Part shown: positions 4,590-5,947 of the stretch, one piece after another
Layout: each line of letters starts with the position of its first letter
Numbering within the stretch: position 1 is the first letter of the stretch
NCBI RefSeq assembly: GCF_004138335.1
Contig: NZ_RYFW01000002.1
Span: 973,501-1,037,500 of the forward strand
Length of the DNA stretch: 64,000 nt
From: Peristeroidobacter agariperforans
GTDB taxonomy: Bacteria > Pseudomonadota > Gammaproteobacteria > Steroidobacterales > Steroidobacteraceae
Reading direction: 5' to 3'
Notes under the pieces: model-generated
Database searches by the model: none
What the model saw: only the letters and a program-made list of their open reading frames with translations
What the model was told of the DNA's origin: nothing
Made by a program: the position numbers and the translations under genes

Positions 4590-4726
4590 GGCTGTCTCGA
4601 GCAGCTTACACGACTGCCAGACACCCGCTTCACCCTGGCCGAAAGTCCATTGCGCGTCGAATCGTCTTGCACAATGCGAATCAGAGAGTTGCAGAGGGCA
4701 ATATTCCTGTGTTATCAAAGCCCCCA

Positions 4727-4804
4727 ATGCAAAAATCTTCCACCCGCTATTGGTTTTACTTTAGCTATCCAAAGCCGCTGGCGGATGGACTGACCTCGAT
4801 TTGA
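4727..4804 (+). CDS. Aromatic-rich leader peptide of the DAHP synthase gene
   Basis: A 25-codon frame starts ATG at 4727 and ends TGA at 4802-4804. Residues 8-14 read Tyr-Trp-Phe-Tyr-Phe-Ser-Tyr, so six of seven consecutive codons are aromatic. Such a run is the hallmark of leader peptides used in ribosome-mediated attenuation. It lies 84 bases before the start of DAHP synthase, the first enzyme of aromatic amino acid synthesis, and is followed by an intrinsic terminator. No strong Shine-Dalgarno sequence is visible. A weak promoter (TTGCAG 4689-4694, 18-base spacer, TATCAA 4713-4718) would place the RNA start almost at the ATG, so leaderless translation is possible. The frame and codons are seen directly; the function is inferred. 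Confidence 0.75.
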   Translation: MQKSSTRYWFYFSYPKPLADGLTSI

Positions 4805-4859
4805 CCGAAGCTTGAACCGAGTCACCCGAAAAACCGCCAGCAAACTGGCGGTTTTTTTT
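4740..4859 (+). promoter_or_regulatory. Predicted ribosome-mediated attenuator for aromatic amino acids
   Basis: Three mutually exclusive pairings can be drawn. The pause hairpin pairs CCACCCGC (4740-4747) with GCGGATGG (4781-4788) with one mismatch, and its loop holds the aromatic codons (4748-4768). The antiterminator pairs CTGGCGG (4778-4784) with CCGCCAG (4834-4840). The terminator pairs 4831-4840 with 4845-4854. A ribosome stalled on Tyr, Trp or Phe codons would mask the first arm and free the second to form the antiterminator. Fast translation would let the terminator form. This is the classic trp/phe attenuator logic applied to DAHP synthase. The pairings are seen in the sequence; the mechanism is inferred. 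Confidence 0.75.
4831..4859 (+). terminator. Intrinsic terminator of the aromatic attenuator
   Basis: A perfect ten-base-pair stem, AAACCGCCAG / CTGGCGGTTT, with loop CAAA is followed by an unbroken run of eight T. It lies between the leader peptide stop and the GTG start of DAHP synthase and points towards that gene. No other + strand gene ends here, so it must act on the leader transcript. Confidence 0.9.
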
Positions 4860-4888
4860 GCGCCGCCGGTAAGCCCACTGGAGCCCTC

Positions 4889-5947
4889 GTGAACGCCCGT
4901 ACCGACGATTTAAGAATTCGTGAAATCCGCGAGCTGGTCACTCCTCATCAAGTGATGAGCGAGCACCCGTGCACCGAGACTGCCGCGGCCACCGTCGAGC
5001 AGGGCCGCAGAGCAATGCAGGACATCGTGCACGGTCGCAGCGACCGGCTCGCCGTCGTCATCGGGCCCTGCTCGATTCACGATACCCAAGCGGCGATGGA
5101 CTATGCCCATCGGCTGCGGGAACAGCGGGAGCGCTTCAAGGGCGAACTGGAAATCGTCATGCGCGTGTATTTCGAGAAGCCGCGCACCACGGTGGGCTGG
5201 AAAGGACTGATCAACGATCCCGATCTCGACGGCAGCTTCAATATCAATCGGGGGCTGCGCATTGCGCGTCAGCTGTTGGGCGACATCAACGATCTTGGCT
5301 TGCCCGCCGGTTGCGAGTTCCTCGACATCATCACACCGCAATACATCGGCGACCTGGTCGCTTGGGGCGCGATCGGCGCACGCACCACCGAGAGCCAGGT
5401 GCACCGTGAGATGACCTCGGGCTTGTCCTGCCCGGTGGGATTCAAGAATGGCACCGACGGCAATGTGAAGATTGCGATCGATGCAGTGCAGGCGGCGTCC
5501 TTTCCGCATCATTTTCTGGCCGTGACCAAGCAAGGTCACAGCGCCATCGCGACCACCAGCGGCAACGGCGATTGTCACGTGATCCTGCGCGGCGGCAAGG
5601 AGCCGAACTACGATGCGGCGAGCATCGATTCAGTGTGCAAACAACTCGGTGCGGCCAAGCTGCCGCTGCGCGTGATGGTCGACGTGAGTCATGGCAACAG
5701 CTCGAAGAAGCCCGAGAATCAGCCGCTGGTCATCGCCGATATCGCCAAACGCATCGAAGCAGGGGAGCGGCGCATCAGCGGCGTCATGGTCGAGAGTCAT
5801 CTGAAGGCCGGCCGGCAGGACCTGGCGCCGGGCAAGCCGCTCGAATATGGCCAGAGCATCACGGATGGGTGCGTCGACTGGCAGTCGTCCGTGCAGATCC
5901 TGGAGCAACTTGCAAATGCCGTGAGTGTGCGGCGCAAGACTTCATGA
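4889..5947 (+). CDS. aroG: 3-deoxy-7-phosphoheptulonate (DAHP) synthase, class I
   Basis: This enzyme condenses phosphoenolpyruvate with erythrose 4-phosphate, the committed cytosolic step of the shikimate pathway. The 352-residue length matches the E. coli AroF/AroG/AroH group. Visible motifs are IGPCSIHD (58-65, with the metal-ligand Cys61), KPRTTVGWKG (97-106), GARTTESQVHREM (163-175), KNGTDG, LRGGKEPNY and DVSHGNSSKK. Which isoform it is (Phe-, Tyr- or Trp-inhibited) cannot be decided safely, so the symbol is a family label. Translation starts at GTG with GGAG about six bases upstream. Expression is probably set by the attenuator and leader peptide immediately upstream, whose mixed Tyr/Trp/Phe codons would sense general aromatic shortage. 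Confidence 0.97.
   Translation: MNARTDDLRIREIRELVTPHQVMSEHPCTETAAATVEQGRRAMQDIVHGRSDRLAVVIGPCSIHDTQAAMDYAHRLREQRERFKGELEIVMRVYFEKPRTTVGWKGLINDPDLDGSFNINRGLRIARQLLGDINDLGLPAGCEFLDIITPQYIGDLVAWGAIGARTTESQVHREMTSGLSCPVGFKNGTDGNVKIAIDAVQAASFPHHFLAVTKQGHSAIATTSGNGDCHVILRGGKEPNYDAASIDSVCKQLGAAKLPLRVMVDVSHGNSSKKPENQPLVIADIAKRIEAGERRISGVMVESHLKAGRQDLAPGKPLEYGQSITDGCVDWQSSVQILEQLANAVSVRRKTS

Follow-up and report, generated by a model that had tools for sequence, protein, structure and literature searches.

The window, a 64,000-nt stretch of DNA from Peristeroidobacter agariperforans (source genome of 7.65 Mb in 17 contigs), carries near its 5' end an aroG gene encoding a type I DAHP synthase. The encoded protein matches TIGR00034 with an E value of 5.4e-159, scores slightly below the cut-off of the equivalog model NF006723 (554.6 against 568), and has its nearest named relatives in Bordetella (71% identity) and Dyella (74% identity). 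A preliminary description of this DNA had proposed that a 25-codon frame encoding Tyr-Trp-Phe-Tyr-Phe-Ser-Tyr lies directly upstream of the GTG of an AroG-type enzyme, and both elements were borne out, the frame running from ATG 4727 to TGA 4804 and the gene starting at GTG 4889. The leader and aroG are flanked on the 5' side by a divergent methyltransferase-like gene, and the T run at the end of the leader is separated from the aroG GTG by only 29 nt. The features of the locus are as follows.

4689..4694, + strand, possible -35 element TTGCAG, placed by eye 18 nt 5' of the -10-like hexamer; 3/6 positions match TTGACA
4710..4718, + strand, extended -10-like motif TGTTATCAA, kept in the same genus and in others, ending 8 nt before the ATG
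4726..4727, + strand, predicted transcription start, at or adjoining the leader AUG, placed by its distance from the -10-like motif and by the purines that first follow a C tract
4727..4804, + strand, leader peptide ORF of 25 codons, ATG 4727 and TGA 4804, translation MQKSSTRYWFYFSYPKPLADGLTSI, kept as an aromatic-rich ORF before aroG
4739..4757, + strand, region 1, partner of region 2 (from folding and relatives)
4748..4768, + strand, aromatic control codons Tyr-Trp-Phe-Tyr-Phe-Ser-Tyr, read from the sequence
4771..4789, + strand, region 2, with CTGGCGG (4778-4784) as its core, this being the antiterminator strand and equal in sequence to the terminator 3' arm
4787..4827, + strand, spacer hairpin between regions 2 and 3, extending the antiterminator (from folding)
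4829..4840, + strand, region 3, terminator 5' arm, core CCGCCAG at 4834-4840 (from sequence and folding)
4845..4856, + strand, region 4, terminator 3' arm (from sequence and folding)
4852..4859, + strand, T run of eight T, read from the sequence
4880..4883, + strand, likely aroG ribosome-binding site GGAG, 5 nt 5' of the GTG, read from the sequence
4889..5947, + strand, aroG, type I DAHP synthase of 352 aa (TIGR00034, PF00793), start GTG

On both strands of the window, two ORFs of 8-70 codons contain at least five F/W/Y residues per eight codons, and one contains at least six; among these aromatic-rich short ORFs only the leader ORF at 4727-4804 has a terminator after it. Six leader peptides compared with NCBIfam and Pfam matched no family. 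The upstream regions of aroG genes were surveyed with a joint detector requiring an aromatic-rich ORF with a terminator close behind its stop, in a named set of 80 AroG loci (alpha-, beta- and gammaproteobacterial, and the top-ranking of at least 594 candidates), a set of 26 AroG places in 25 of 60 related genomes, the source genome included, and a phylum set of 70 AroG upstream regions made up of the 30 best-scoring and 40 hand-picked to span families. The detector was positive at 72/80 named, 16/26 related and 14/70 phylum loci, as compared with 0/1600, 0/520 and 0/1400 of the respective shuffled sequences (0/3520 together) and 0/80, 0/26 and 0/70 of the reverse strands. The presence of a leader and terminator before aroG is not due to chance. 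The preliminary description had looked to close relatives for conservation of the aromatic run and stems, and both are kept there and across three classes.

Four of the eight loci missed in the named set (L036, L042, L060 and L067) possess both parts, with one part slightly below threshold or with an ORF that runs into the terminator, and three (L044, L074 and L081) have neither ORF nor terminator. The last of the eight, L049 of Limnobacter humi, has the aromatic-rich ORF FYAFYSFFAWFW before aroG and no terminator that could be found; this locus may have lost the control or use a different one. Among the ten misses in the related genomes, L096 and L098 are without a gene start and hence offered no upstream region to scan, and the other eight encode distant AroG proteins of 48-56% identity. 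Family f20 of the phylum set (L153-L158) exhibits leaders of the form FYFYFWFSVPGGRE, in which the strand is altered to CCGGCGG, and in three of its six loci (L153, L155 and L157) the ORF is present with no scored terminator. Families f24, f27, f19 and f18, which might correspond to Enterobacteriaceae-, Vibrio-, Pasteurella- and Shewanella-like groups, yielded 0/31 positive loci with the joint detector, and a looser scan upstream of E. coli K-12 aroG found neither an aromatic ORF nor a terminator. One record, L013 (NZ_VCCH02000159.1), is titled Mycobacterium sp. KBS0706 and contains an AroG and leader of alphaproteobacterial type, the leader being closely similar to that of Inquilinus limosus (L040); this record is probably mislabelled.

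The RNA of the leader region is predicted to fold into three competing hairpins, as the preliminary description had drawn them, and the 201-nt region gave a more stable fold than 200/200 dinucleotide-preserving shuffles (z -3.49). Hairpin 1:2 (-20.2 kcal/mol) contains the pause hairpin claimed at 4740-4747/4781-4788, which is present with one C-A mismatch (4743/4785) and is lengthened by the fold to 4739-4757/4771-4789. The antiterminator 2:3, with a folding energy of -24.3 kcal/mol including its inner hairpin, pairs 4778-4784 with 4834-4840 at 7/7 positions, and the terminator 3:4 forms 12 pairs (4829-4840/4845-4856) around a CAAA loop at -17.5 kcal/mol, with the eight T at 4852-4859. A generic terminator scan at the leader returned 0 terminators, perhaps because its rule needs a T run after the stem, and here the stem enters the Ts.

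In the stall folds the front edge of the ribosome was set at the standard value, 12 nt downstream of the first A-site codon base. With the ribosome on any aromatic codon in the window, 2:3 forms with a probability of at least 0.97, falling to 0 one codon beyond; a stall on codons 5' of the aromatic run also frees region 2 in the window fold. When the RNA ends at 4790, 1:2 forms first (0.87), and in RNA at the decision point with no ribosome the equilibrium fold prefers 2:3 (0.96), so that the untranslated state would terminate only if 1:2 persists. The competing structures are shown as folding predictions only.

Across loci, a GGCGG core is found between the aromatic run and the terminator in 96/102 detected loci, versus approximately 8% in mononucleotide shuffles, and lies in leader frames 2, 0 and 1 at 87, 6 and 3 loci, respectively. 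This strand is thus read in three frames, indicating that it is kept as RNA and the aromatic run as codons. In 50/50 aligned loci, both CCGCC of region 3 and GGCGG of region 4 are invariant. Folding was carried out on 92 loci, after four duplicates and the core-less loci were dropped. When region 1 was masked and region 4 left out, the 2:3 probability exceeded 0.5 in 92/92 loci; when region 3 was left out, region 2 paired upstream in 91/92. The distance from the start of the last aromatic codon to the core is 14 nt in 50/92 loci, 15-20 nt in 32, 11-12 nt in five and 1-2 nt in five, counts that are not independent, as the 92 loci share kinship; at the five loci at 1-2 nt the codon is one for Trp and overlaps the core (TGG within CTGGCGG or TTGGGCGG). 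At codon positions 19-30 nt 5' of the region-2 core, 92-98% of the 92 loci have an aromatic codon, versus 0-5% at positions up to 12 nt 5' of it. This codon-to-strand geometry is the best single test of the mechanism; a ribosome stalled on the aromatic run would mostly leave the antiterminator strand free. Sequence comparison shows the leader ORF, the pairing strands with their conservation, the codon-strand spacing and the link to aroG.

Compensatory changes in the stems, which the preliminary description had suggested looking for, were found in single lineages: AGGCGGT occurs with ACCGCCT in L021, L038 and L045, and CCGGCGG with CCGCCGG in L156 and L158, the changes matching in all three strands. 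Covariation between regions 2 and 3 is weak overall, however: at either of the two closest 5' flank positions 59/91 loci are paired, versus an expected 51.5, and the remaining positions lie near expectation. Covariation was dropped as the main proof for this reason, and the support lies in invariance. When the spacer was shuffled the mean 2:3 probability was still 0.92, and the core alone therefore accounts for most of the 2:3 folding result. The spacer hairpin exceeds its shuffles modestly in relatives (mean z -0.9), the 1:2 hairpin gave a mean z of only -1.0 against shuffled region 1, and the RNAalifold consensus consists of the terminator only, with nine pairs, three of them changed on both sides.

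A covariance model built from 50 loci produced one strong full-length match in the source genome, at aroG (E 1.4e-30); the other full-length match there has an E value of 2.75, and the aroG-leader terminator is also matched on the reverse strand, at E 7e-4. In 398 genomes of the phylum, 48 full-length matches were obtained at E <= 2.9e-10, that of the window included, and 48/48 lie directly 5' of AroG (39 as determined by tblastn, eight by coordinates, and that of the window itself). Genomes with a locus in the model alignment supply six of these matches (G000, G278, G308, G387, G397 and G438), and further ones are close relatives of loci in that alignment. AroG was detected above the curated cut-off in 225/398 genomes, and the strong matches cover about a fifth of these. 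The weaker matches are mixed, with many spanning the terminator half only, and at ten weaker places that were fetched AroG was found at one (L227) and not within the stretch taken at nine. One weaker match, L225 (G444:C1:3143397-3143553), is full-length at E 2.0e-8 and has no AroG within the 1.75 kb taken.

The position of a promoter-like motif suggests that the leader mRNA in the window may be leaderless, starting at or near the leader AUG. The preliminary description had counted a transcription start 3' of the terminator against its reading; the kept promoter-like motif is instead located 5' of the leader ATG. This -10-like motif ends 6-9 nt before the ATG in 49/102 loci and at other distances in 17; in the remaining 36, for the most part of Burkholderia or Oxalobacteraceae type, the interval is 22-39 nt. 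These placements come from loci aligned on the ATG and a simple scoring that always returns some best site. The motif is of the TGTGnTATCA type in the same genus, in Xanthomonadales and in Alcaligenaceae, the alphaproteobacterial motif being GTGACA followed by a GCTATATG-type sequence, and many relatives have a TTGC- or TGACA-type sequence at the -35 place. A generic promoter scan at the leader returned 0 promoters; the -10 here is of the extended type.

The leader combines several elements of a trp-type attenuator, namely a run of control codons in a leader ORF, a terminator, hairpins predicted to be mutually exclusive and a placement of the codons suited to choosing between them. It is accordingly annotated here as a ribosome-mediated transcription attenuator of aroG of the classical type, with a probability of about 0.92, perhaps with a leaderless mRNA, and very likely one that switches aroG on when aromatic amino acids run short. 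We infer the start of transcription, the translation of the leader and termination in the cell from the features described above. RNA polymerase would begin at or near the leader AUG, this being the putative start, with a ribosome trailing it. When charged tRNA-Tyr, tRNA-Phe or tRNA-Trp is scarce, the ribosome would stall on an aromatic codon, masking region 1 and leaving region 2 open; region 2 (CTGGCGG) would then pair with region 3 (CCGCCAG) on its emergence, the terminator would not form and aroG would be transcribed. With ample charged tRNA, the ribosome would advance over region 2 and 1:2 would later re-form, after which 3:4 would pair and transcription would stop at the T run.

Other readings of the same features were considered. 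The terminator could be the end of a small-RNA gene, or of a gene for a peptide acting in trans, that finishes before aroG, which would then have a separate promoter. A strong terminator, a leaderless-type start and an invariant core would all be expected of such a gene, for which the rnTrpL/peTrpL pair of Sinorhizobium provides a precedent in passages of PMC7298713. The location of 48/48 strong matches directly before aroG, the spacing of codons to strand that suits attenuation, and the distance of only 29 nt from T run to GTG nevertheless render this very unlikely. A conserved aromatic-rich stretch would be expected of an arrest peptide too, in which stalling results from contacts among the nascent chain, the ribosome and a metabolite and not from a shortage of charged tRNA. 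Among lineages, however, the aromatic residues differ freely in order and kind (YWFYFSY, FYFYFYGF, YFWYFSY, FYFYFFWY). Outside the run, conservation at the protein level is confined to residues that encode the RNA strand, itself read in three frames; an arrest peptide is barely credible on these grounds.

Alternative folds and strongly kept strands would also suit a metabolite-binding riboswitch or a protein-binding leader with a merely incidental ORF. This explanation appears exceedingly improbable in light of a consensus structure that is limited to the terminator, a coding run that is the most constant part 5' of region 2, and the finding that no Rfam family reaches its gathering score in the window or in the leaders of 20 related loci (Phe_leader, 0/20).

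Returning to the attenuator, its codons bear on which amino acids might be sensed. The leader of the window has codons for each of the three amino acids that the preliminary description would have it sense; across leaders Phe and Tyr codons are nearly universal, and Trp is missing in 31/98. Of these 98 distinct leaders, 66 contain F, W and Y, 31 contain F and Y, and one contains F and W. Sensing of all three aromatics is plausible from the sequence, and the identity of the amino acids sensed is something that we infer. Leader Phe codons are TTT in 272/333 cases, versus 92/573 in the aroG stretches downstream, where Phe is mostly TTC (481/573), and leader Tyr codons are TAT in 130/243 cases versus 169/513 downstream. 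Favouring the synonymous codon less used in aroG would fit a slow-decoding sensor, or could instead serve the RNA fold.

The distribution of the leader was compared with that of TyrR. TyrR was found above the curated cut-off (NF008085) in 0/24 leader genomes versus 14/24 leader-free genomes, all hand-picked and not random, and TyrR tracks lineage; three further leader-free genomes have partial matches of 356-400 bits, the leader genomes reaching 274 bits at most. The best NF008085 match in the source genome scores 251.6 bits against a cut-off of 576, and aroG was not assigned to a TyrR regulon. A type II DAHP synthase is present as well in the source genome (G000:C13:243117-244424, L234), and the joint detector was negative in the 473 nt before its start, which was placed by eye. 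It seems that only one of the two DAHP synthase isoenzyme types of this genome is attenuated via an aromatic leader.

Mapped onto a tree of 82 AroG proteins (leader detected in 47, not in 35), the leader label requires 7 changes, versus 26.7 in shuffles; L036, L042 and L060 are unlabelled rows inside leader clades, yet bear a leader. The alphaproteobacterial rows lie with Rhodanobacteraceae inside a gammaproteobacterial group (98/85), and this nesting suggests that aroG and its leader moved jointly between classes. The leader might further be an old aroG-bound aromatic sensor cassette that moved between classes with aroG, its terminated leaderless RNA and its peptide having additional targets in trans among other mRNAs of the aromatic pathway, in the manner of rnTrpL and peTrpL of Sinorhizobium; this extension is considered unlikely. 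Such a role in trans, if true, would help to account for the invariance of GGCGG/CCGCC/GGCGG over three classes, as pair swaps would be expected in a purely structural switch more often than they are seen in these strands.

Attenuation of this kind has known counterparts. The trp and pheA attenuators of E. coli employ leader codons and alternative 1:2, 2:3 and 3:4 hairpins. The aroG leader shares this logic, the E. coli systems controlling other genes in response to other amino acids (passages of PMC11802643). Unlike those of E. coli trp and pheA, the aroG leader has its stop approximately 18 nt past the region-2 core and a seemingly leaderless start. The Rfam model Phe_leader (RF01859) scored 21.4 bits against the aroG leader (gathering 55, E 0.18), so that the leader falls outside this family, and a search of 4650-4900 at a permissive threshold gave seven matches far under gathering, the best being Phe_leader and sroD. 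At the promoter level, E. coli aroF, aroG and aroH are under the control of the TyrR and TrpR protein repressors. The enzyme and end products are the same as here, with protein repressors in place of a leader, in the relevant passages of the review PMC11802643.

Aromatic leader peptides have also been associated with DAHP synthase genes outside this group. The primary paper on the aroR-aroF attenuator of Corynebacterium glutamicum is said to be Neshat et al. 2014. In passages of PMC11802643 and PMC4046766, this system has a Phe-Tyr-Phe leader at which ribosome stalling raises transcription, and the former describes an effect of Phe limitation and reports none of Tyr availability. It resembles the aroG leader in having an aromatic-codon leader peptide before a DAHP synthase gene, but belongs to another phylum and has three aromatic codons, none of them Trp, as opposed to six here; the likeness is one of function. 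In Acholeplasma, a proposed uORF before aroF, uORFC-13-1, contains Phe codon(s) and a terminator, is confined to Acholeplasma and environmental sequences, and is described in passages of PMC8632094 without a three-way strand exchange; the same passages mention that attenuation of E. coli aroF was once hypothesized. Attenuation of Shewanella aroF and aroH is predicted in part of PMC2659441. A proteobacterial parallel with a leaderless leader ORF is trpL/rnTrpL in the trp attenuator of S. meliloti (passages of PMC7298713 and PMC10117765), which contains Trp codons only, controls trpE(G) and has a demonstrated role in trans. The aroG leader is likewise proteobacterial, and its ORF may be leaderless.

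Passages of PMC2965389, PMC4448311, PMC4117421 and PMC11109978 contain no aroG leader, the first of these giving 65 attenuated gene families in a figure. Among the literature matches listed, none describes an aroG leader in Pseudomonadota, and an earlier listing is possible. Vitreschak et al. 2004 reportedly deals with proteobacterial attenuators. The trp-type mechanism is thus of a known kind, including on DAHP synthase, and the only reports of such control on this kind of gene found for Pseudomonadota were the hypothesis on aroF of E. coli and the predictions for Shewanella. The leader is defined well enough to be annotated as an RNA family, makes it testable whether one leader integrates the shortage of two or three charged tRNAs, and would be useful in engineering aromatic production in hosts that bear it. 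It points to single-element, translation-based control of the aromatic entry step in Xanthomonadales-, Burkholderiales- and Bradyrhizobium-like lineages, and the E. coli TyrR model is seemingly inapplicable to leader-bearing lineages. The aroG leader represents a widespread example of a known form of control, recurring before aroG in many bacteria.
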